IMG/VR virus record: IMGVR_UViG_3300025012_000046
Span: 1-64,000 of that record
Reading direction: 5' to 3' (one strand)
Source of the DNA: a virus
DNA length: 64,000 nt
Positions 29,636 to 56,552 of the stretch are shown piece after piece. Position 1 is the stretch's first letter. Each line of letters opens with the position of its first letter. The position numbers and the translations under genes were made by a program. Under the pieces are notes generated by a model. It was not told the origin of the DNA. It made no database searches and was given only the letters and a program-made list of their open reading frames with translations.

Positions 29636-30626
29636 TGTTACTGGGCTGCTAGAAAGTAAAAACATAGATTATGTAGTGAGGGGCGGCGGAGAAATTAGTA
29701 TCCGCTGCCCAAATGCTATAAACCACCAAGACGGTTCTGATAGTATTGAAAGCTTTAACATAAACATAGATAATTTAGAGAGCCATTGCTTTTCTTGTGG
29801 CCTGTCTATGAACACTGCCAAGTTGACCAAATGGCTGCTTGGGGAAGACCTGGATGAACTGGAATATAAATGTCTTGAGTTGAGAGGTAAACTAAAAAAA
29901 CTACAAAGTTATGACTTCAACATCGTAACTCCTGTCAGTAAAAGCGTGATCATACCGTTTGGTAAACCAGTAACAGAGCCTTTCAGGAACATCAGCGTAG
30001 AAACATACAAAAAGCTTAACGCAGTTATCGTGGAGAGGGGTAGATACGCTGGTAGACTGTGCTTTCCTATAATACTAGACGGAAAAATAATAGGTATAGA
30101 CGGTAGGCTGTTAAACAACGCTGATGTAACAAAAGAAAACCCAAAGTATAAGCGTAATTTTAACTCTAGCTGTCAGCATGATTGGCTTTGGCCATTCGAC
30201 GTTACTAAAAACTTGATAAAAGAAAAAGGTTTTAATTATGTAATACTTGGCGAAGGAGCATTTCACGCTGCAAATGGAATTAACCACGGCTTTCCTACTT
30301 TAACTTATTTCGGAGCTAATAATTTCAGTCAGCATAAAGCGCTAATGCTAATGTCTTTAGGTATAACTGAGGTAGTTGTCTTCCCCGACAAGGATAAAGC
30401 TGGAGAGCTAGTTTTGTACGGTAATCCAACAGCTAATAGCGAAATATTAAAGATGGGTATATGTAGATTCTTAAGTGATTGGTTTGAGGTTTCAGTAGCA
30501 AACACAGACAGGTTGCAGCTTGACCCTTTGGCTACTTTGGCTAAGCAGAAAGCTGTGTACCAAGACTTAGGCGATTTAAATAGAGAAGAAATTCAATGGG
30601 CGATAGATAATAGGAGGAAGTTTTGA
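29628..30626 (+). CDS. DNA primase (zinc finger plus Toprim), 332 aa
   Basis: Residues 27-57 contain C27 plus CFSC, a likely zinc-binding domain. A Toprim fold follows: YVILGEGAFHAA (motif with the catalytic Glu) and VVFPDKDKAG (the D-x-D motif). Length fits small phage primases of the DnaG type without a helicase domain. It would lay RNA primers at the fork and work with the DnaB-like helicase encoded at 23956. The next gene overlaps its stop. Confidence 0.85.
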   Translation: MLDVTGLLESKNIDYVVRGGGEISIRCPNAINHQDGSDSIESFNINIDNLESHCFSCGLSMNTAKLTKWLLGEDLDELEYKCLELRGKLKKLQSYDFNIVTPVSKSVIIPFGKPVTEPFRNISVETYKKLNAVIVERGRYAGRLCFPIILDGKIIGIDGRLLNNADVTKENPKYKRNFNSSCQHDWLWPFDVTKNLIKEKGFNYVILGEGAFHAANGINHGFPTLTYFGANNFSQHKALMLMSLGITEVVVFPDKDKAGELVLYGNPTANSEILKMGICRFLSDWFEVSVANTDRLQLDPLATLAKQKAVYQDLGDLNREEIQWAIDNRRKF

Positions 30627-31525
30627 TAGGAGCATTTCCTAAGATTTTTGCAATAGGCACCACGTACATCAAAGATATTTTTAAGAATGACGTTGAGGTT
30701 ACTGAAAAGGTAGACGGCTCACAATTTGGTTTCGGCAAAGTTAATGGAGAACTTATAGTAAGAAGTAAGGGCCAGCAGCTTAACTTACTAAGCCCAGAAA
30801 AAATGTTTTCTGCTGGGGTTGACTACGTTAAATCAATTGAGCACAAACTACCAGATAACAAGTTCTTTTACGCTGAGTACTTGCAAAGACCAAAGCATAA
30901 CGTGTTAACCTATAGTCGCGTCCCTAAAAATCATCTTATACTGTTTGGCATTATGAATTTGGACGCATCGTTTGAAGACAACTTAGAGTATTGGGCAGAC
31001 AAATTTGATATTGAATCTGTTCCAGTTATTTACAGAGGAAATATATCTTCACCTGACTTCTTAAAAGGACTTCTGGAGAGAGATAGTATACTAGGTGGTG
31101 CTAAAATAGAAGGTGTGGTAGTTAAAAACTACTCACAGCAATTTCTCCTTGGAGGTCAGCCAATACCTATTATGGCTGGTAAGTTTGTGTCAGAGGCATT
31201 CAAAGAAGTACACAGAAATAACTGGGGCAAAGAAAACACCACCAAAGGTAAGTTTGAAACCTTCAAAGAAAGCTTTTGTACAGAAGCTAGGTGGCAAAAA
31301 GCGATACAACACCTGAAAGAAGTTGGAGATATAGAAAGTTCTCCTAAAGATATTGGCAAGCTTATAGTAGAGATACACCGGGATATTGAGCATGAGGAGA
31401 AAGAAAATATAAAGGAATTTTTGTACAACGAATTTAAGCGGGAGATAGTGGGAACTGCGACAAAAGGTTTTCCTGAGTGGTATAAAGAACAGTTACTTAA
31501 AAGTAACTTTGAGGACGCTGCATGA
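30623..31525 (+). CDS. RNA ligase (Rnl2-type), 300 aa
   Basis: TTG 30623 overlaps the primase stop and follows AGGAGG. Motif I is EKVDGSQFGF with catalytic Lys29. Motif III is seen as FYAEYL, motif IV as EGVVVKNY, and motif V as MAGKFVSEAFKE, all in the order of the T4 Rnl2 family. Such enzymes repair nicked RNA, for example tRNA cut by host anticodon nucleases. The window also holds a tRNA-like RNA. A C-terminal helical region of 100 residues follows. Confidence 0.85.
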   Translation: MIGAFPKIFAIGTTYIKDIFKNDVEVTEKVDGSQFGFGKVNGELIVRSKGQQLNLLSPEKMFSAGVDYVKSIEHKLPDNKFFYAEYLQRPKHNVLTYSRVPKNHLILFGIMNLDASFEDNLEYWADKFDIESVPVIYRGNISSPDFLKGLLERDSILGGAKIEGVVVKNYSQQFLLGGQPIPIMAGKFVSEAFKEVHRNNWGKENTTKGKFETFKESFCTEARWQKAIQHLKEVGDIESSPKDIGKLIVEIHRDIEHEEKENIKEFLYNEFKREIVGTATKGFPEWYKEQLLKSNFEDAA

Positions 31526-37649: not shown

Positions 37650-38975
37650 TTGAAGGAATTCAAAACGCTAGAGCTTATAGCAGCAACCCCAAGTAAAAAT
37701 GACAAAATAAGATTGTTGAAAGAGAATGAGACACCTGATCTTAAGAAGCTGCTCAACTACACGTATGACCGATACAAAACTTATCGTGTAAACAAGGTAG
37801 ACAAGCCTGAAACATACAATATTATCCAGCCTGAGATGGGAAATGAACTTTTCAATCTGCTAGACCTTTTGAGAGAACATAAGACAGGCTCTAATGATGC
37901 CAAGAAGCTTATCAAAAGCACAATGTCTAAGTGTACCGAAGCTGGAGCTAAATGGATTGAAAGAGTATTCAAGCGCAACCTAGACATAGGAATGGATGAG
38001 AAGTCTATAAACAAGGCTTTCCCTGATCTTATCCCTGTGTTTGACGTTCAGCTGGCCTTTCCTATTGACGAGCATTGGGATAGCATCGTATATCCAGTTA
38101 TCCTTGATCCTAAGCTTGATGGTATGCGGGTTATCACCATAGTTAAGGATGATAAAGTTTCCTTCTTATCAAGAGAAGGTATGGAATTTATTAACATGCA
38201 GGCGTTTGCCGAAGAGGTTAAGTCTATACGTCCCGGTACAAACTTCGTGTTAGACGGCGAGATTTACGGTGGCAAACTAAACCCTAACTGCAAGAAAGCT
38301 GTAGAAAAAGTTAAGGCAAATAAGCCCTACAAGTTTACTCAAGCTTCGTCTATGGTAAAGGATAGTAAAACTACGCCGCAAGAGATGCGCAAGTACCTTG
38401 AGTACATCGTGTGGGATATTATAGAGCTTGACTACTTTGAATCACAAGGTAAACGCGGAACAAACGAAGAGTGTGGTGAGCGGAGACTTAAGCTTGCTGC
38501 TCTGTTTGAACGTATCGGTGAGCGTGAGTTCAAGAATGTGAAGTACCTTGAGAATGTTGTAGCTTTCTCTAGGGAAGAAATAATAACGTATCGTGACAAG
38601 TGTATTGCTGAAGGCTTTGAAGGCTGTATGATCAAAGCTGTTGCTGGTAGTTATGATTTCAAGCGAAGTAAATCTGTGCTTAAGTTTAAGGAATTCCATA
38701 CAGGTGACTTTAGGATTAAAGTCGCTATTGAAGGTACAGGTAAGTATGAAGGTATGCTTGGTGCAGTTAAGGTGGAAGCTCCAGGTGTTGACTCTGAGAT
38801 TGGTACTGGCTTCACAGATGACGAGAGGGCTGATCTTTGGGTAGAGTGGTTGGCTGGGAGGCTTACCGGGCAGATTATTGAAGCTCTGTATCAGGAAATT
38901 ACTAGTGAAGGTGCTTTGCGTTTTAGTAGCTTCTTACGTATGCGTCCTGATAAGAGCGAACCTAGTCTTTACTAA
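37650..38975 (+). CDS. ATP-dependent DNA ligase, 441 aa
   Basis: TTG 37650 follows AAGGGGC. An N-terminal helical domain of about 140 residues includes IERVFKRNLDIGMDEKSIN, typical of phage and eukaryotic ligases. The nucleotidyltransferase core has motif I K155-LDG, motif III DGEIYGG (D202), motif IV EGCMIK (E324-K329) and motif V LKFKEF, followed by an OB domain. It joins nicks during replication and recombination. Length is between T7 (359) and T4 (487) ligases. A divergent second copy without catalytic residues appears at 47034. Confidence 0.9.
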   Translation: MKEFKTLELIAATPSKNDKIRLLKENETPDLKKLLNYTYDRYKTYRVNKVDKPETYNIIQPEMGNELFNLLDLLREHKTGSNDAKKLIKSTMSKCTEAGAKWIERVFKRNLDIGMDEKSINKAFPDLIPVFDVQLAFPIDEHWDSIVYPVILDPKLDGMRVITIVKDDKVSFLSREGMEFINMQAFAEEVKSIRPGTNFVLDGEIYGGKLNPNCKKAVEKVKANKPYKFTQASSMVKDSKTTPQEMRKYLEYIVWDIIELDYFESQGKRGTNEECGERRLKLAALFERIGEREFKNVKYLENVVAFSREEIITYRDKCIAEGFEGCMIKAVAGSYDFKRSKSVLKFKEFHTGDFRIKVAIEGTGKYEGMLGAVKVEAPGVDSEIGTGFTDDERADLWVEWLAGRLTGQIIEALYQEITSEGALRFSSFLRMRPDKSEPSLY

Positions 38976-43713: not shown

Positions 43714-44739
43714 ATGCAAAAATTTGTTACTTTCGGTGACGTTCACCTAAAGATCAATCGTGACGCGCCTGTTGAGTGGTCTTTTAAGCGATACAGAGCT
43801 TTATTTAAAGAGATAATTGATCGGTGCCTTAAAGAAGAAGCTACGCTTATAATCACAGGTGACTTATGTGACTCTGCTAGGCCCACTTTATCTGAATTGA
43901 AGTTGTTATTTGAGTTCTTCCATGCTTTAAAAGACAACAAAATAAACACAATACTCATATCAGGAAATCATGAAGAAGTTAACGACAAGCTAACGCTTTA
44001 TAATTACCTGCACCTGGAGAAGTTTGGTAATAAAGATGGGGCTTCTTATATACACTACCAAGACTGGAACAGCGGGTGGGTATTTGAAGACGCTAACGGA
44101 AAGCCTGAATGCTCTATATACCCAGTGTCTCACCATGAAGTACATAATTACGATTACACTAGGGGCATAAAAGGAACAAGGCCTAGCATCCTAGTCTCAC
44201 ACATAAGAGCGGAAATACCTCCGTTCATTTCAGAAGAAGCTCCTATAAATGAGATAGCAAAGAACTTTGATGTTTGTATTTTTGGTGACATTCACGACGA
44301 GCTTGAGTTTGATAACGTATACTACACTAATAATCCTTTAAATTGTTGTTATGAGGTCACACCTAACTGCGGTTACACAATACTTACCGTGGATAAAGGC
44401 AAATTTAACATTCAGCGTGTTAAAACTGATCTACCTAATCTGGTTAAAATCAACACGCAAGCAGAAGCATTCGAAAATGAAGTACTTAAGCTTGACCCCA
44501 AACACTTCTATAAAATCGAAGTAGAGGGCTTAGCCGCTGAATTAAAAGCGATACCTAAGTCTGGTATCAATTTCAAAACTGAAAAACAAATCATAGAAGA
44601 GATTCAGACTGAAGAGGCGTACCACATACCAGTAAGCGACATTAAGCACGAAACTCTTGAAGAAGAGCTTATTTGGTATATGCAGCAACTAGAAATGAAC
44701 GACAAAGACATACAAGGAATGATGGATGAATTTGTTTAA
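43714..44739 (+). CDS. SbcD/Mre11-type nuclease subunit, 341 aa
   Basis: Begins MQKFVTFGDVH (D9, H11), then ITGDLCD, SGNHE, SHIRAE and FGDIHDE, the five phosphoesterase motifs of Mre11/SbcD (T4 gp47, T5 D12-D13 pair). Together with the SbcC-like partner encoded at 44943 it would form a nuclease for DNA ends and hairpins, used in recombination and host DNA breakdown. Confidence 0.9.
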   Translation: MQKFVTFGDVHLKINRDAPVEWSFKRYRALFKEIIDRCLKEEATLIITGDLCDSARPTLSELKLLFEFFHALKDNKINTILISGNHEEVNDKLTLYNYLHLEKFGNKDGASYIHYQDWNSGWVFEDANGKPECSIYPVSHHEVHNYDYTRGIKGTRPSILVSHIRAEIPPFISEEAPINEIAKNFDVCIFGDIHDELEFDNVYYTNNPLNCCYEVTPNCGYTILTVDKGKFNIQRVKTDLPNLVKINTQAEAFENEVLKLDPKHFYKIEVEGLAAELKAIPKSGINFKTEKQIIEEIQTEEAYHIPVSDIKHETLEEELIWYMQQLEMNDKDIQGMMDEFV

Positions 44740-44950
44740 ATTTAGAGCAATAAACGACGCAAAAGATCGCACGTATGGTGTAGCCGTAAGGATATTGGGG
44801 TTAGACTTCGCAGTTATATTTAACGGGTTCCTTGATATGTGGTATTTGTTTTATGTAAAAGCATTTGGCCAAGGCATCAGTGGGCTGTACCTACAAGTAC
44901 TTGGGCTTGTGATAGTTATCGGCGCGAAAGCTGACATTCTGTATGAATAA
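44726..44950 (+). CDS. Two-span membrane protein, 74 aa
   Basis: ATG 44726 inside the end of the nuclease gene with AGGAATG upstream. Spans at about residues 25-45 and 52-68 (LYLQVLGLVIVIGA). It lies between the SbcD and SbcC genes and overlaps both. Confidence 0.5.
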   Translation: MNLFKFRAINDAKDRTYGVAVRILGLDFAVIFNGFLDMWYLFYVKAFGQGISGLYLQVLGLVIVIGAKADILYE

Positions 44951-46847
44951 AATACTAAAGGTAGTTGCTGACGATACTTTTGCTTTTGAGCACGTTGAGT
45001 TCTCTTTTAGTAACGGTATCTGGGCTATTAACGGAGAAAACGGAAAAGGTAAATCAAGTTTGTTCTTTCTTTTGGCTCAGGGGTTCTTTAATAAGAACCC
45101 CAAGTCAACTGACATTGACGACATTAACAATTGCATCACAGGAAGACCTTCTGTTATAGAGATAGAATGGTTTAACACTGACTCTAGTGTGACGTACAAA
45201 GTGGTAAACTCTAGGAAGGCCGGGAAGATAGAAGTATGGGCAGACGAAACTAACATCTCCGGTAAGACTATCCCACAGAGCCTGAAGATTATAGAAGAGA
45301 AGCTAGGCTGTAACTACGAGAACTTCATAACACAGTGCTTTGTTGATAGCACAACCACACTTGATCTTGTAGAAAGCAGCAATGACGCACCACGTAAAGC
45401 TTTCATCAATAAACTGCTCAAGTTTGAAGAGCTAGACGCCAAGCTGGAAGTATTTAAGCAGCGCAAGAAAAGCCTTGACTCTAGCATCGAAGCTGACAAC
45501 AGGCAACTGGCTACACTAACGTCATCTGTAGGAGAATTGCAAGAAGAGACTGAAGAAGACCTTAAGCTGGAAGAGGAGCTTAAGGCTAAGGTAACGGCTG
45601 CTGAAACCAAATTGTCTAGTCTCAGGGAAGCTAGAGCAGTATTGCACAGTAAATTCCAAGCTACTAAAGATGAAATAGAAGCTTGGACGCAATGCAAAAC
45701 TGCTAGAGATGAGATAAGCAAACTTGAGGCAGAGCTTTCTGAACTAGAGACAGTAATTACTGAAGTAGATCAGCTTGATGACTTGAAAGAAAGCAGAAAG
45801 AATTACTACTCAGAGTTAAACCTACTAAAGATAAACGAGTCTGAGTACGTCAATAAAATTAGGGACTGTAACAACGCTATAAAAAATAAGACGTGCCCCA
45901 CATGTGGGCATGATATTAACATTAAGCCTTTTGTTAAAGACTTGGTTGTTTACCAAACAACGCTTAACGACATACTCAAGTCAAAGGGCGCAGTTGAGGA
46001 GTCTCTTAATAGCATTAACGTTGACCTTAAGCTGTACGAAAAGCAGCAGGAATTATCTAATAAGCTAGATAAGCTTAAGGTACAAAGCAGTTCGCTGACT
46101 GTAGACATTAAAGCAATTACCAAGAAAAAGGAAAAGCTACAAGAAGAGGGCAACACTTTAAACGCTGAGGTGTCAGCAAAGGAAACAGAGTTAAATGAGT
46201 ACCGCAACGCTCATAGAAGAGTATTGGAGAGTAACCAGCAAGCTAAGACAATTAGAGAAGTCAATGCAAGAGTCACAGCAAACAATGAAAAGCTTAACAG
46301 AAACATTGGAGAGCTTCAAACAAACATTGGACAGAATGAGCGACGACTGGAAGTAGTAAAAAAGTGGATAACTATACTTGGACCTAAAGGTTTCCGTGTC
46401 CACAAAATGAACAAGTTTCTTTCACAGCTTAACAAAGCTATGAAGAAGTACTCAGATATTTTGTCTAACGGTAGGATCGTCAGTAAGTTTTACGTTGACG
46501 AAGATGGCAAGATACAGTTTAAGGTGCGAGATATTGACAAGGCCTTGCCGTTCGCATGTTGGTCTTCTGGGGAGAAGGCTAGGGTTAAGCTTAGTTGTTT
46601 ATTTGCCGTACTGGAGTTGTTGGAAGATATTGGTGGCAGTTGTTTTAACATCCTATACTTGGACGAGATAGGCGTAACACTAGACCAAGAAGGTAAAGAT
46701 AATTTGTTCGAAGTGTTGGCTTACCTTAAGAGCAAAGCAAAGTGTATCTACTGTATTAGCCACACACCTTTGGTAAACCCAGTTGTGTTTGACGGCAATT
46801 TCAACATGGAAAAAACTGACGGAATATCTAGCATTTTAGGAGCTTAG
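44943..46847 (+). CDS. SbcC/Rad50-type ATPase subunit, 634 aa
   Basis: Walker A GENGKGKSS at residues 31-39, long coiled coils at about 170-320 and 340-480 separated by the zinc hook CPTCG (C318, C321), then the ABC signature WSSGEKARVKL and Walker B LYLDEIGV with an H-loop SHTP. Matches phage SbcC (T4 gp46). The two coiled-coil arms are about 150 residues each, short as in other phage versions. It pairs with the nuclease encoded at 43714. Confidence 0.9.
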   Translation: MNKILKVVADDTFAFEHVEFSFSNGIWAINGENGKGKSSLFFLLAQGFFNKNPKSTDIDDINNCITGRPSVIEIEWFNTDSSVTYKVVNSRKAGKIEVWADETNISGKTIPQSLKIIEEKLGCNYENFITQCFVDSTTTLDLVESSNDAPRKAFINKLLKFEELDAKLEVFKQRKKSLDSSIEADNRQLATLTSSVGELQEETEEDLKLEEELKAKVTAAETKLSSLREARAVLHSKFQATKDEIEAWTQCKTARDEISKLEAELSELETVITEVDQLDDLKESRKNYYSELNLLKINESEYVNKIRDCNNAIKNKTCPTCGHDINIKPFVKDLVVYQTTLNDILKSKGAVEESLNSINVDLKLYEKQQELSNKLDKLKVQSSSLTVDIKAITKKKEKLQEEGNTLNAEVSAKETELNEYRNAHRRVLESNQQAKTIREVNARVTANNEKLNRNIGELQTNIGQNERRLEVVKKWITILGPKGFRVHKMNKFLSQLNKAMKKYSDILSNGRIVSKFYVDEDGKIQFKVRDIDKALPFACWSSGEKARVKLSCLFAVLELLEDIGGSCFNILYLDEIGVTLDQEGKDNLFEVLAYLKSKAKCIYCISHTPLVNPVVFDGNFNMEKTDGISSILGA

Positions 46848-46848
46848 T

Positions 46849-47037
46849 ATGTGTTTTATCTTTCATAATTGGTCTAAGTGGTGTGCGCCGGTAGACACAG
46901 GCACACACTTTTATAAGGCACAGTATTCTGAGTGTTTAGATTGTGGTAAAATTAAGGTTAGACGCATTACTTTGTGGAAGGGTGGCAACGCATGTGCAGT
47001 GCCTGCTGAACAAATTAAAAAGGCGTTAGGTAAATGA
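46849..47037 (+). CDS. Small zinc-ribbon-like protein, 62 aa
   Basis: NWSKWCAPVDT and ECLDCGKIKVRRIT resemble small proteins with an F-H-x-W-x-K-W start and one CxxC, seen across phages. Possible metal binding by Cys and His. It overlaps the next gene by four bases. Confidence 0.55.
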   Translation: MCFIFHNWSKWCAPVDTGTHFYKAQYSECLDCGKIKVRRITLWKGGNACAVPAEQIKKALGK

Positions 47038-48692
47038 AGTGGTGGGAAGTTCAACCTGAAGACGTTGCAGAGCTACTTGCGGTTACAAATTCCATTAAGG
47101 CTATTAAGTCTCACAAGGAGAAAAAGGAATTTGTAACCGTAACTGTACCTAACCTTAGACCTGAAGTTAGTTACCTGTTTTCGGTGTTTCTGTATCACTC
47201 TTTGTTTAATTCTAGGTGGGCTGTAATTGATATATCTAACTACTTCACAGTGCGCAAGAAGAATGCAAATGAGTCTACAGCTGAAGACTTTATTAAACTG
47301 CTTAGAGCGTATGATAGAAAAAAGCCTAGACTACGCAAAGACTCAAAGCTGTTCAAGTTTTTGCAGCTGTGTGATAAGCCATACTTTGATTTCTACGCTT
47401 CTCTATTAGAAAAGAAGTTCCATGAGGGGTTGCCACTTACTGAATGCCAAGAGCTTCTAAACCTGGAAGAAGTTTCACTATCTGACATTTATGACCCAGA
47501 GGAAAAGGTAAGGGAGAACCTAGAAGCCCTTACCTTCCCAGTGGCTATTACTAGGGTTGACCACATTGAAGCTGAGTTTGTGATATTTGTCAAGCGCACA
47601 GACGCAGTATATTGCTATAAAATTGTGAATGGGCAACTTAAAACCACATGGGGAGCATTATACAACATCCGGTCCACCAGTACTATATTTGATCAGCCTG
47701 TTTATGCTGTAGCTGGTATTAGGGTTAAGATAGATGACCCTAATTTTGCGGGAAGAAGGAAAGCTACTACAGCTATTAGAAACAAAAAGAGAAACACAAC
47801 GTACTACAAGTTCATTCCGATGGATTTGTTCAAAGACAGGACAGAGATAGAGGCTTACATTAACGGCGAAGAGGTAACTCCATTTATTGAGCGTTATAAA
47901 AATCTACAGGAGTTCCTAGACTATAGCTTTGTATTCGGCAGCTCAGACGATTATGTTGGATTTGCGAATAGCGAACAAGACTTACAAGAAGAGGTCACTA
48001 AGCTTCTAGGCAAAAATAAACAAGGATACTTGGTATTTTACGACGAGAATTCTGTAAGAACCATGACCGTATCTGCTAAGAAGTGTGCCACAGTAGAAAC
48101 CGTTATTGACAGCTTATGGGTAGAGGGTGAAGAAGTAAAAGGCTTTATTGTTTGGCACAACGCAGAAATGCACAAGGTAGCTTTGGACTTGCCTAGTAAA
48201 CACAAAGGATTGCTTAAAAATCCGCAGGCGCTTAAAACTAGAGTTTTAGACTGTATATACTTTAGAGTTAACGATAAGTGCTTTTATTTCCCGGTGCAGT
48301 TCAACTTTAACTCAAAATTTTGGGGGAGTACTAGAGCAGGCGTGTATTTAACTTGTTGCTGTGTTTGTGGTGGAACTGAATATAAACATGATGGAAACGG
48401 TATCTGTACCTCTTGTCTGATGAATATGTATAACATTTTTAGGAGGGTTGGTCCTAACAATTGGCACAATGAAACAAGGAATCAACAAAAGAAAAGGTCA
48501 AAAGTAGGCTGGCACCACAGTATTCTGGATAACGCTAAGGTTAGGTTTCAGGGATACAGGCTTAAGGGTAGGGTAGACGGGGCTATAATGTACGTGCCAG
48601 ATGAAGAGGCTCAAGCTAAGTACGAGCATGAAATATCAAAGCAGGGTTGGAATAAAAACTTAAAGAAGAGCAAAATGAAAGGTAAAATATGA
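47034..48692 (+). CDS. Putative catalytically dead DNA ligase-like protein with zinc ribbon, 552 aa
   Basis: A hand comparison with the ligase at 37650 gives matching order. The helix LLEKKFHEGLPLTECQELLN corresponds to RVFKRNLDIGMDEKSINKAF, and the distance from it to the motif I position is 51 residues in both. Motif I (K-LDG) reads R174-VDH, motif III (DGE) reads A227-G-I, motif IV (EGCMIK) reads QGYLVF at 330-335. All catalytic residues are thus replaced. Residues about 440-465 hold two CxxC pairs (CCCVCGG, CTSC), and the C-terminus is basic. It may be a DNA-binding or nick-sensing factor. It lies between the SbcC and RuvC-like genes. Confidence 0.55.
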   Translation: MKWWEVQPEDVAELLAVTNSIKAIKSHKEKKEFVTVTVPNLRPEVSYLFSVFLYHSLFNSRWAVIDISNYFTVRKKNANESTAEDFIKLLRAYDRKKPRLRKDSKLFKFLQLCDKPYFDFYASLLEKKFHEGLPLTECQELLNLEEVSLSDIYDPEEKVRENLEALTFPVAITRVDHIEAEFVIFVKRTDAVYCYKIVNGQLKTTWGALYNIRSTSTIFDQPVYAVAGIRVKIDDPNFAGRRKATTAIRNKKRNTTYYKFIPMDLFKDRTEIEAYINGEEVTPFIERYKNLQEFLDYSFVFGSSDDYVGFANSEQDLQEEVTKLLGKNKQGYLVFYDENSVRTMTVSAKKCATVETVIDSLWVEGEEVKGFIVWHNAEMHKVALDLPSKHKGLLKNPQALKTRVLDCIYFRVNDKCFYFPVQFNFNSKFWGSTRAGVYLTCCCVCGGTEYKHDGNGICTSCLMNMYNIFRRVGPNNWHNETRNQQKKRSKVGWHHSILDNAKVRFQGYRLKGRVDGAIMYVPDEEAQAKYEHEISKQGWNKNLKKSKMKGKI

Positions 48693-48895
48693 ATGTTGGT
48701 GATACAGTACGCCTAACAAAAGATATTTGGGACGATGGGTGTGATAATCATCACCCTCCAGGGTATCTAGCTCGTAAAGGGGAGATACTTGTAGTTAGAA
48801 GTATAGAACAAGGCCGTACTTGGGTTGGAGTATCACACGCTAACAGACCGGACGGGTGGTTTAATGTATACAATGGAGAATACGAAATAGTATGA
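48689..48895 (+). CDS. KOW/SH3-like hypothetical protein, 68 aa
   Basis: MNVGDTVRLTKDIWDDG and KGEILVVRSI ... VYNGEYEIV form a small beta-barrel pattern (VGD-x-V-R-L ... G-E-x-L-x-V). Such domains bind nucleic acid or proteins. Overlaps both neighbours by four bases. Confidence 0.6.
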   Translation: MNVGDTVRLTKDIWDDGCDNHHPPGYLARKGEILVVRSIEQGRTWVGVSHANRPDGWFNVYNGEYEIV

Positions 48896-49452
48896 TTATA
48901 AGCATAGACCTATCTAAACGCTCAACAGGTGTGTGTGCGTTAGACATGAATGGGAACCTGATTGATTTTTTGCTAGTACATAATGAGCACCTACACGAAG
49001 AAGAATTATTCATCTATAACATAAGTCAGATCGTAGATTTCAGCAGAGGCCTCGCTGCTAGGTACGTATTGGAAGGTTTTGTTACTGAAGCACTTGCGCT
49101 GCATGCTCCTAGTAAAGATAAAGATCAGTTGTTCGGGCAGTTCTGGATTCTGCAATACGAGCTAGCTAAGGAGTTTGCTACCGTACCTAGGGGTAAGATC
49201 ACTGTTGCTGAGTGGAGAAGTAGTGTGCTGACTAAAGCAGAGCAGCGAGAGCTAAAGGCTGAAGATAGCAAGAATGGTTTGAAAATTGGGTGTGTACGTA
49301 AGCTGCCGGAAGATGTTAGGGAAAGGTTTGAGCACTACCTGGCTGTTAATAAAGTAAAGAGAATTGCTAGTAAAGAGCCTTTGTATGATTTATCTGACGC
49401 ATATCACATTGGCAAATATAGGTTATCTTATGGAAGAGAAAATAAAATATGA
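48892..49452 (+). CDS. RuvC-like Holliday junction resolvase, 186 aa
   Basis: Starts IISIDLSKRSTGVCAL with Asp6 in the first RNase H-fold strand. LEGF supplies Glu61, and DLSDAYHIG supplies Asp166 and Asp169. These match the four-acid RuvC site. The protein would resolve branched DNA before packaging; position after the SbcCD pair parallels T5 D14. Confidence 0.8.
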   Translation: MIISIDLSKRSTGVCALDMNGNLIDFLLVHNEHLHEEELFIYNISQIVDFSRGLAARYVLEGFVTEALALHAPSKDKDQLFGQFWILQYELAKEFATVPRGKITVAEWRSSVLTKAEQRELKAEDSKNGLKIGCVRKLPEDVRERFEHYLAVNKVKRIASKEPLYDLSDAYHIGKYRLSYGRENKI

Positions 49453-50040: not shown

Positions 50041-50430
50041 ATGACAATCGTATCTACCACCAAACCAAACCAAGCATATCACAAATTCGTCGGCTTTTTA
50101 ACTAAAAAATTTCCTATCAATCGGCCTAATAACATAGAAATTCGTCTAGAGGATTACAAATACATTCCTTACAAAGTCAACGGAGAGCTTACAAGAGCTT
50201 ACGCCACAATCAACGCTGTAAGGAATTCAGACAAACTTGTTATTAGGCTGGCTGTAGGAAAGAACGGACACACAATCAAAGAAAAGTTAAATTCAATTGC
50301 GCACGAATACTGTCACTGTATGCAGCACTACAGAGGGGAGGTGTTTAACACAGACTGGGACGCTAGGTTGGAACTAGAAGCAATAGAGTTTGCAAATTCA
50401 GTTGTGAGTAGTTACTATAAAATGATATGA
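50041..50430 (+). CDS. Zinc metalloprotease-like protein (HExxH), 129 aa
   Basis: SIAHEYCHCMQHYRGE contains HEYCH, a zincin HExxH motif, with possible third ligands in the following acidic helix (ELEAIEFA). Size and position of the motif fit SprT-like or phage zincin proteins. First gene after a promoter. The substrate is unknown; the hydrolytic assignment rests on this motif. Confidence 0.65.
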   Translation: MTIVSTTKPNQAYHKFVGFLTKKFPINRPNNIEIRLEDYKYIPYKVNGELTRAYATINAVRNSDKLVIRLAVGKNGHTIKEKLNSIAHEYCHCMQHYRGEVFNTDWDARLELEAIEFANSVVSSYYKMI

Positions 50431-51402: not shown

Positions 51403-51663
51403 ATGGAACACGCAATGAGAGAGGCTGCTGAAGCCAAGCCTAAGAAAACAAAAACCAAAAAGAAGTCATTCATTGAAAATTTAATAGGTCAGAAAATAAT
51501 CATCCTTGATGACTATGGTGATCAGCTATACGCAAAAGCTGGAAAAGATATTGTACTAGTTGAGATAGATGATGTGCGTAGAGTTTACGTTATCGCTATT
51601 GGAGAAAAACAATTTGCTGTACATTACGACAACATAGGAGGAATAGGCACGCTTAGTGAGTGA
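51403..51663 (+). CDS. Hypothetical basic protein, 86 aa
   Basis: N-terminal Lys/Ala-rich helix (AEAKPKKTKTKKKSFIENLI) followed by a small beta domain (LDDYGDQLYAKAG ... RVYVIAIGEKQFAV). May bind nucleic acid. Overlaps the next gene. Confidence 0.5.
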   Translation: MEHAMREAAEAKPKKTKTKKKSFIENLIGQKIIILDDYGDQLYAKAGKDIVLVEIDDVRRVYVIAIGEKQFAVHYDNIGGIGTLSE

Positions 51664-52216
51664 GATATTTGAAGAAGAACTAAAACAGATACAGGATAAT
51701 GAGATACGAGAGTTTACTAGGTATATACTTAGTAAAAGGCCTTCTTATTTCGACCACGTAGCAGCCTCATCTACAGGTAAATACCATAACCCAAATGAAA
51801 ACGGTGTTGGAGGTTTGATTAGACACACCAAAGGGGTATGCTATATGGCTAAGGAATTTGCCAGTGTGTACAACTTCGCACCAATTGATGTTGACATTGT
51901 AATGTCTGCTGCCATTTTGCACGATATTTGTAAATATGGTATTGGTATAAAGCAGGCTCACACAACACGCGACCATGATGAACAAGGTGCAAAATATATA
52001 CAGATAATGGCAAAAACTGCCCCGCCTTGCCGTTATTTAGATGAAATATGTCGAGCAGTAGCAGCACACATGGGCAGATGGAAAGTAGGAAAAACGGTTG
52101 TATTTCCCAAAGACCTAAACGAAATACAACAGTGTCTCCACTTGGCTGATGTAGCTGCTAGTCGAAAGAAAGTAAACATAGAACTGTTTGACGAAGACAC
52201 ACCACTAATAGGATAA
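51656..52216 (+). CDS. HD-domain hydrolase, 186 aa
   Basis: GTG 51656. H57 in GLIRHTKG, the HD pair at 89-90 in AILHDICKYG, and a later D in HLADVAASR match the H ... HD ... D metal site of HD phosphohydrolases. Similar phage proteins are annotated as dNTP or nucleotide hydrolases. Likely a nucleotide or phosphate hydrolase acting in the cytoplasm. Confidence 0.8.
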   Translation: MSEIFEEELKQIQDNEIREFTRYILSKRPSYFDHVAASSTGKYHNPNENGVGGLIRHTKGVCYMAKEFASVYNFAPIDVDIVMSAAILHDICKYGIGIKQAHTTRDHDEQGAKYIQIMAKTAPPCRYLDEICRAVAAHMGRWKVGKTVVFPKDLNEIQQCLHLADVAASRKKVNIELFDEDTPLIG

Positions 52217-54329: not shown

Positions 54330-56552
54330 ATGTCATATGAATTAAATGGGATGGCCGCTGATATTTGGGCTAAAAAATATAAAGCAGATTCCGACACAAC
54401 TATAGAAGATATGTGGAGAAGAACCGCCAAAGCAATGTCTTCAGTAGAGCAAGACAAAGAGTATTGGGAAAACGAATTTTACCAATTACAGTATGACTTC
54501 AAGTTCATTCCTGGCGGTAGGATAAACGCGGGAGCAGGCACACTAAATAATTATTTGTTAAATTGTGCCGTCCTGCCGGTAGAGGACTCTATAGATGGTA
54601 TCTACGAAGCTATTAAACGATCTGCGGTTATGGCCAAGTGTAACTACGGAATTGGCTTTGACTTCTCCTCGCTCAGACCTAAAGGAGATATTGTGTCAAA
54701 GGGCGGCGTGTCTAGCGGCCCTGTTAGCTTCATGCGTGTTTTTGACACAAGCGGGGCTATTATTGAAACCGGAGGTGGAAGACGCGCTGCGGCAATCGGG
54801 ATACTCAGAGTCGATCATCCAGACATTCTTGAGTTTATTGATGCAAAAAGACAAGAAGGTGTACTGACTCAGTTTAACATAAGTGTAGGTATTACTGACG
54901 AGTTTATTAACGCTGTTAAGAACAATGAAGACTTTGATCTAAGCTTTAAAGGAAAAGTATATAAGACCGTTAAGGCCAAAGAAATTTGGGATAAGCTGGT
55001 TAAGTCTGGGTATAATTATAATGACCCTGGAATTTTTTATATAGATCAAGTTAACAAGTGTAACAACGGCTATTACTTGTACGACATTGCTGCGTCCAAC
55101 CCCTGTGGTGAAATTCCACTACCACCCTACGGTGTTTGTGATCTTGGTAACATAAATCTGACTAAATTTGTAGTAGACCCCTTCACTCCAGTCTTGCGAG
55201 GGACAAGCTATAAAGATGAGTGGAGTTACAATTTTAACTGGGCATCTTACGAAGATACTATTAAGACGGCTGTTAGATTTCTAGACAATGTTCTGGATGT
55301 TTCTGATTATCCGTATAAAGAAATAGCAGACAGAGCAAAAGGGGATCGTAGAATAGGACTTAACGGAGTAGCAGGGTTAGGCTCGTTTTTGGCTATGCTA
55401 AGAGTGCCTTACGACTCAGCAGAAGCTATTGAGATAGCAAAAATTCTACAAGAATTCACAATGCGCACTGCATATAACGCGTCAGTAGAGTTGGCCAAAG
55501 AAAAAGGAGCATTTGCTAATTTTGACGCTGAAAAGTATACTAAAGCTGTGTTTATACTAAAGCACTTTACCGACTATGAACTTCTAGACGAAATTTATGA
55601 TTACGGTATTCGCAACATAGCGCTGCTTACGATTCCACCTGTGGGTACTGGAAGTTTAATTGCTGGTAACATTTCAAACGGGCTAGAGCCTATATTTGCT
55701 CTTGAATATAATCGTAACGTAAGGCAACTTGATGGCACTACTAAACAGGAGCCAGTTGAAGATTACGCGTGGAAATTATACAAACAAGCTAACAATACTG
55801 GAGATACTACTTTACCAACTAGTTTCTTTAAAACGTCAAGAGAAATTTCACCTAAAGCTCACGTAGATATGCAGGCTGCTTTGCAGGAATTTATTGATGG
55901 GTCTATAAGTAAAACCGCTAACATACCAGAAAGTTTTACTATAAAAGAGTACGAAGAGTTACTTTGGTATGCCCTTGACAAAGGGTGTAAGGGCTTCACT
56001 ACTTTTAGAGAAGGAACCAGAGAAGGTGTATTGGAGACTAAAAAAGAAAAGCCTAAAGTTCAACAGGAAGAGAAAATAAAGTCAGTTGAGCCAAAAAAGA
56101 AACGACCTAGAGCACTTGACGGTAAGACCTATAAACTGAAAGATGACTTAGGCAACTTATACGTTACTATTAACGACATAGAAGAAAGAGGCAAGACTAA
56201 GCCTTTTGAAATATTTATTAATAGTAATGGCGAGAACTCTCAGTACGCTCCTTGGTACAGAGCTATGGGTAAGTTAATGTCTGCTGTTATGAGGAGAACA
56301 GACGATTGTAGCTTCATGGTAAAGGATTTACAGTCAATATACGGGCAGCATGGCTTCTTTTCAGACGGGACTTATGTGCAATCCCAACCACAGATGGTGG
56401 GAAATGTACTACGAGAGCATTTAGATAGCCTTAACCCTGACGTTAAAAAGGAAGTTAAGCACCTTAAATGCCCTGAATGTGGAGAGATGAGTTACGTTAA
56501 GGAGGGTGGTTGTAGTAAGTGTCTTAGTTGCTCTTACTCTACTTGTGGTTAG
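54330..56552 (+). CDS. nrdJ: Class II (adenosylcobalamin-dependent) ribonucleotide reductase, 740 aa
   Basis: No separate small subunit gene is present. The catalytic barrel has NCAVLPVEDS (C79), NPCGEIPLPPYGVCDL (C259) and the PPVGTGSLIAGN loop, as in NrdJ. The C-terminal tail has CPECGEM and CSKCLSCSYSTCG, the Cys-rich redox tail of class II enzymes. It makes deoxynucleotides without oxygen, so the phage can replicate in anaerobic or microaerobic hosts, but needs host vitamin B12. A homing endonuclease gene follows. Confidence 0.9.
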   Translation: MSYELNGMAADIWAKKYKADSDTTIEDMWRRTAKAMSSVEQDKEYWENEFYQLQYDFKFIPGGRINAGAGTLNNYLLNCAVLPVEDSIDGIYEAIKRSAVMAKCNYGIGFDFSSLRPKGDIVSKGGVSSGPVSFMRVFDTSGAIIETGGGRRAAAIGILRVDHPDILEFIDAKRQEGVLTQFNISVGITDEFINAVKNNEDFDLSFKGKVYKTVKAKEIWDKLVKSGYNYNDPGIFYIDQVNKCNNGYYLYDIAASNPCGEIPLPPYGVCDLGNINLTKFVVDPFTPVLRGTSYKDEWSYNFNWASYEDTIKTAVRFLDNVLDVSDYPYKEIADRAKGDRRIGLNGVAGLGSFLAMLRVPYDSAEAIEIAKILQEFTMRTAYNASVELAKEKGAFANFDAEKYTKAVFILKHFTDYELLDEIYDYGIRNIALLTIPPVGTGSLIAGNISNGLEPIFALEYNRNVRQLDGTTKQEPVEDYAWKLYKQANNTGDTTLPTSFFKTSREISPKAHVDMQAALQEFIDGSISKTANIPESFTIKEYEELLWYALDKGCKGFTTFREGTREGVLETKKEKPKVQQEEKIKSVEPKKKRPRALDGKTYKLKDDLGNLYVTINDIEERGKTKPFEIFINSNGENSQYAPWYRAMGKLMSAVMRRTDDCSFMVKDLQSIYGQHGFFSDGTYVQSQPQMVGNVLREHLDSLNPDVKKEVKHLKCPECGEMSYVKEGGCSKCLSCSYSTCG

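Follow-up and report, generated by a model that had tools for sequence, protein, structure and literature searches.

What could a phage do with a protein that keeps the layout of a DNA ligase and lacks the residues that seal DNA? This question is raised by a 552-residue open reading frame (positions 47034-48692, plus strand) in the window, the 64,000-nucleotide stretch that we analyzed from a 99.5-kb virus record (IMG/VR IMGVR_UViG_3300025012_000046). Judged by its sequence, the phage is a very isolated, distant relative of T5, with a polymerase and a terminase that share approximately 28% identity with those of T5-type phages. The frame is real, running from an ATG at 47034 to a stop at 48692, and it has relatives on five IMG/VR contigs and an hhalign alignment to phage ATP ligases. 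We refer to it here as the pseudo-ligase gene.

The gene lies next to genes for DNA-break repair. Upstream are an SbcD-like nuclease subunit (43714-44739, +), which matches Pfam Metallophos (4.8e-12) and, by phmmer, T5-type SbcD genes in other contigs, and an SbcC-like subunit (44943-46847, +; phrog_77, 8.5e-61). The order then runs from SbcC through a 62-aa ORF (46849-47037, +), the pseudo-ligase gene and a 68-aa ORF (48689-48895, +) to a gene for a RuvC-like protein (48892-49452, +), a putative Holliday junction resolvase. These genes are tightly packed: the 62-aa ORF starts 2 nt after SbcC, and from there onward every start overlaps the preceding end by 4 nt, such that the 62-aa ORF runs into the start of the pseudo-ligase gene and the 68-aa ORF overlaps the end of that gene on one side and the start of the RuvC-like gene on the other. 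Because of these overlaps and the short gap after SbcC, translational coupling of the block from SbcC to the resolvase is likely. The preliminary description of the locus had placed the pseudo-ligase between SbcC and a RuvC-like gene, which our searches bear out with a strong match for SbcC and a weak one for the RuvC-like product (phrog_159 only, E = 0.021; no match in Pfam or NCBIfam). A CLDC pair is present in the 62-aa ORF.

The same phage encodes an intact ATP-dependent DNA ligase of the T4/SPO1 type (37650-38975, +; phrog_114, 1.8e-95; Pfam DNA_ligase_A_M), which contains all catalytic motifs and was used as a comparator. The N-terminus of this ligase has weak matches to DUF6433 (E = 0.003) and phrog_461 (E = 1e-4), which may be stand-alone families of the ligase DNA-binding domain (DBD). 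A third ligase-superfamily gene of the phage encodes an RNA ligase (30623-31525, +; phrog_548, 8e-19) with the motif EKVDGSQ.

Searches with the pseudo-ligase recognized no family in Pfam, PHROGs, NCBIfam or PADLOC, and tblastn against INPHARED (50,697 phage records) returned no match. Single-protein searches of IMG/VR and of GTDB genomes found nothing, no homologue was present in 50 records of T5-like and other phages, and the SbcC, whole polymerase and RNR of the window used as queries revealed no near relatives. Relatives were reached through a short conserved segment of the polymerase, which led to two IMG/VR contigs that both encode a full-length homologue (28% identity, E about 2e-57). 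A profile built from two sequences then recovered three further IMG/VR contigs, and a repeat of the GTDB scan with this profile found nothing. In total, full-length relatives occur on five IMG/VR contigs as three distinct sequences of 511-528 aa, which are mutually close and share 26-28% identity with the window copy. Recoding of TAG in the relatives was considered and rejected, as the in-frame TAG is the stop codon of the pseudo-ligase itself.

In all relatives, the pseudo-ligase gene is located downstream of SbcC. The two genes share 4 nt in two of the three sequences, and in the third a 215-aa ORF precedes the pseudo-ligase. On its 3' side, the relatives encode a RusA-type resolvase (PHROG E about 1e-30), which occupies the place held by the RuvC-like gene in the window. 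In the two longer stretches, a metallophosphoesterase comes next. An intact ATP ligase is also encoded by the window and by four relative contigs (the remaining one is a 35-kb fragment), which argues that the dead copy is no replacement for the ligase. The RNR also appears to have been replaced between relatives: the window contains a single large RNR-type gene (54330-56552, +), and the same neighborhood of one relative contig (L133:8959-11309) contains an apparent anaerobic NrdD/NrdG pair, judging by sequence.

Taken alone, the sequence of the window copy has a resemblance to ligases that is indistinguishable from chance. Its HMMER score was 1.7 bits, which placed it second when it was ranked together with 200 shuffles, and a global profile test gave a Z of about 2, comparable to unrelated helicases. 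AlphaFold models made from the single sequence and from a four-row alignment of the nucleotidyltransferase (NTase) and OB regions were poor (pLDDT 35 and 39), and Foldseek searches with them placed no ligase above noise, the quality of these models being too low to judge the fold.

A ligase signal emerged only with the relatives added, and it did so in the register that had been found by eye. Using hhalign, we compared a family profile of four sequences (the window copy and three relatives, with an effective depth of about two sequences) with a profile of 15 diverse phage ATP ligases, which yielded an alignment of 254 columns (P = 1.3e-4, score 41.9). Other column rules resulted in alignments of 352 columns (score 35.0) or 381 columns (score 35.7) with P about 1e-3. 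The alignments are colinear from the N-terminus, starting at residue 10-13 of one profile and 2-4 of the other. When columns were shuffled for the 352-column alignment (n = 150), the mean score was 16.2 and the maximum 26.8, as compared with 35.0, and a reversed ligase profile scored 15.1. Among 34 control families taken from related phages, the highest score of an unrelated one was 25.3, over 18 columns, and no alignment among the best 14 of the 34 exceeded 64 columns, the known ligase pair excepted. Thirteen families from the same genomes at similar depth scored 13.7-19.2, as compared with 35.7 over 381 columns for the ligase match. Two sequences, each weak on its own, together gave a clear signal in a single register, as common descent predicts. 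Because the hhalign probability for the match is modest (13-53%), we regard homology of the family to ATP ligases as highly probable rather than certain. Descent from the ligase of this lineage could not be shown: its three ligases used alone as a profile gave no signal, and the diverse phage ligase profile was needed.

The detectable homology spans three regions in ligase order. The N-terminal region (about residues 13-154; 47070-47496, +) resembles the helical DNA-binding domain, with 112 hhalign columns and a score of 20.8 against a shuffle maximum of 15.8, and keeps K30 and G132. The NTase-like region (about residues 155-340; 47497-48053, +), recognized by hhalign and by motifs aligned by eye, keeps G200, D264, R287 and L291. 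When scored separately, each of these two regions exceeded all 60 shuffles. The OB-like region (about residues 341-435; 48054-48338, +) is weaker, scoring 15.9 alone, a value reached by one of 60 shuffles, and is included within the 352- and 381-column alignments. Beyond the ligase-like part lies a CxxC-x12-CxxC element (C442, C445, C458 and C461; 48357-48416, +), likely a zinc ribbon from its sequence, whose four cysteines are invariant in the relatives. It is followed by a C-terminal tail (residues 479-552; 48468-48689, +) that is basic in composition (pI 10.1), and W477, K487, R488 and W493 in and around the tail are also invariant in the relatives. Both additions had been noted previously and prove to be conserved, with zinc binding being a prediction.

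We next consider the active site. The intact ligase contains K155-LDG, DGE at 202 and EGCMIK at 324, and the by-eye counterparts in the pseudo-ligase are R174-VDH, AGI at 227 and QGYLVF at 330; all of the residues named in the preliminary description are present in the two proteins. From the invariant glycine of the DBD to motif I there are 41 residues in the intact ligase and 42 in the pseudo-ligase, from motif I to III 47 and 53, and from III to IV 122 and 103. The ligase-like spacing reported previously is therefore similar and not identical, and the figure of 51 residues in both proteins rests on another anchor. The column of motif III is ambiguous, falling by eye on AGI227 and by hhalign on residues 199-201 or 220-222 depending on settings, and none of these is DGE.

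Whether such losses are conserved in homologues, a question raised with the initial claim, is answered by the relatives. The ligase nucleophile K155 and D157, G158 and E204 map to unlike residues in the family. The lysine of the motif I KxDG is absent, with R174 and D176 in the window copy and no lysine in any relative, and no family-invariant lysine lies near motif I. Motifs III (DGE), IV (EGxxxK) and V (KxK) are missing or disrupted throughout the four family sequences; in the relatives, motif IV reads CEYLTLT, which keeps the glutamate and has lost the glycine and lysine. By comparison, the ligase invariants K19, G114, D256, R278 and L282 correspond to K30, G132, D264, R287 and L291, and the nearly invariant G177 to G200, each identical in all four sequences. 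The kept ligase-invariant residues are mostly non-catalytic.

We also examined whether the gene is under selection, using the three relatives rather than the window copy, at synonymous distances of 0.3-0.4. The dN/dS of the pseudo-ligase was 0.09-0.14, as compared with 0.16-0.19 for the adjacent SbcC, and was low in both the ligase-like and the zinc-ribbon parts. The reading frame is open over 511-552 codons in every copy. As judged from this test on the relatives, the gene encodes a working protein. The features that define a pseudoenzyme, namely homology to an enzyme family, conserved loss of the catalytic residues and purifying selection (among the relatives), were each found here. Taken together, these results suggest that the protein is very probably a pseudoenzyme from the phage ATP-dependent DNA ligase family, with DNA-binding, NTase and OB regions in ligase order, a dismantled active site and an added zinc-ribbon-like element and basic tail. 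Such a protein is predicted to be unable to self-adenylate through known ligase chemistry. The core claim of the preliminary description, a ligase-family protein without catalytic residues, is thus supported by the controlled profile-profile comparison once relatives are included.

Loss of the active site alone would also fit a ligase duplicate that is decaying without function, which we consider hardly credible given the dN/dS among the relatives, the open frames, the conserved position and the added zinc-ribbon element. It is very improbable that the protein is still an enzyme, with NTase or other activity from relocated catalytic residues. Migrated catalytic residues are possible in pseudoenzymes (PMC10211241), and K127, K323, K369 and K401 are invariant in the family; however, none of the invariant lysines is close to motif I, and both DGE and motif V have been lost, which makes adenylate transfer by the known mechanism unlikely. 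The ligase likeness could instead be a chance profile match, or a remote similarity of fold without common descent, in a recombination factor that binds DNA, has a zinc ribbon and is unrelated to ligases. This explanation accords with the failure of the single-sequence tests, with the lack of a recognized database family and with weak matches elsewhere that are probably due to chance (Pfam Herpes_UL42, E = 0.024; sliding clamps, which top the Foldseek list of one poor model). We judge it quite unlikely, as the ligase score falls well outside the null range set by three types of control and the alignment runs end to end with family-invariant residues kept.

The main rival accepts the ligase ancestry and differs in function: the dead copy would regulate the phage's own ligase by competing for nicks or pairing with the intact enzyme, such that sealing is delayed and recombination intermediates or programmed nicks persist. 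This possibility is favored by the co-occurrence of the pseudo-ligase with an intact ATP ligase, seen in the window and in all but one of the five relative contigs, and by the distant relationship to T5, since T5-type phages carry site-specific nicks whose function is described as unknown (PMC3517423). However, the pseudo-ligase is linked to SbcC and a resolvase, the ligase gene is about 8 kb away, and the T5-type records searched contain no homologue, which indicates that the pseudo-ligase is not needed for T5 nicks. We therefore regard regulation of the ligase as unlikely, and a link to the programmed nicks of T5-type phages as speculative.

The explanation that we favor, at a probability of roughly 0.55 for the whole, is a pseudoenzyme with a DNA-binding role in SbcCD-linked recombination. 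Because catalytic residues were lost and selection has kept the gene intact in the relatives, binding of broken or nicked DNA rather than its sealing is probable. An adaptor that binds nicked or branched DNA intermediates would be consistent with the ligase scaffold, with the probable zinc ribbon and basic tail that follow it, and with the gene's conserved location, flanked by SbcC and a resolvase gene. From sequence, we infer for the pseudo-ligase its fold, DNA binding, metal binding, partners and order of action, which could be as follows. The ligase scaffold would bind nicked, gapped or branched DNA that arises from SbcCD-dependent recombination or repair, hold it unsealed, and thereby protect it or present it to the nuclease SbcCD and to the neighboring Holliday junction resolvase. 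Our confidence in this mechanism, in which the scaffold may bind recombination or repair DNA without sealing it, falls somewhat short of even odds. Sensing of nicks or branches with recruitment of partners, as originally proposed, is plausible. More tentative still is the idea that full-length pseudo-DNA-ligases form a family of nick or branch sensors within a complex of SbcCD and resolvase, which might couple end processing to junction resolution and delay premature sealing.

Comparison with known systems places the protein near phage ATP ligases of the T4/SPO1 type (phrog_114; PF01068, PF14743, PF04675), with which it shares domain order, a near-colinear alignment from the N-terminus and several invariant residues. 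Unlike those ligases, it lacks the catalytic lysine, DGE and the lysines of motif V, has a broken motif IV, carries the extra zinc-ribbon-like element and basic tail, and escapes all four of these models. In the open literature, we found no pseudo-DNA-ligase in phages. The closest precedent comes from jumbo phages, in the form of stand-alone helical DNA-binding domain proteins of the ligase type (AAX44695.1), which were suggested to recruit a host ligase (PMC7824862) and are likewise non-catalytic phage proteins made from ATP-ligase parts. Those proteins consist of the DBD alone in phages without a ligase, whereas the pseudo-ligase appears to have the whole architecture, with its alignment continuing through the NTase region, and shares its genome with an intact ligase. 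The SbcCD region of T5 (D12-D13-D14-D15) similarly encodes SbcD, SbcC and then a resolvase. However, T5-type phages use a split NAD-dependent ligase and have no pseudo-ligase gene in that region; in about 20 T5-type contigs, the interval separating SbcC from the flap endonuclease contained none. If the favored explanation is true, a dead ligase beside a live one, kept next to SbcC and a resolvase despite the change of resolvase type, would suggest that the ability of the ligase scaffold to recognize nicks can be put to new use as a cofactor of recombination. The protein also opens a direct way to find out whether nicks or junctions are actively left unsealed by some phages.

Other genes downstream of this block were also noted. 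A weak IrrE/M78-peptidase-like protein is encoded at 50041-50430 (+; Pfam 3e-05), and an HD-domain protein at 51656-52216 (+; phrog_5889) is most similar to proteins of SPO1-type phages and also of haloarchaeal viruses. Near the end of the record, at 97.3-99.5 kb (L011:15268-17464), lies what appears by sequence to be a cluster encoding a methyltransferase, a radical-SAM protein and a glycosyltransferase.
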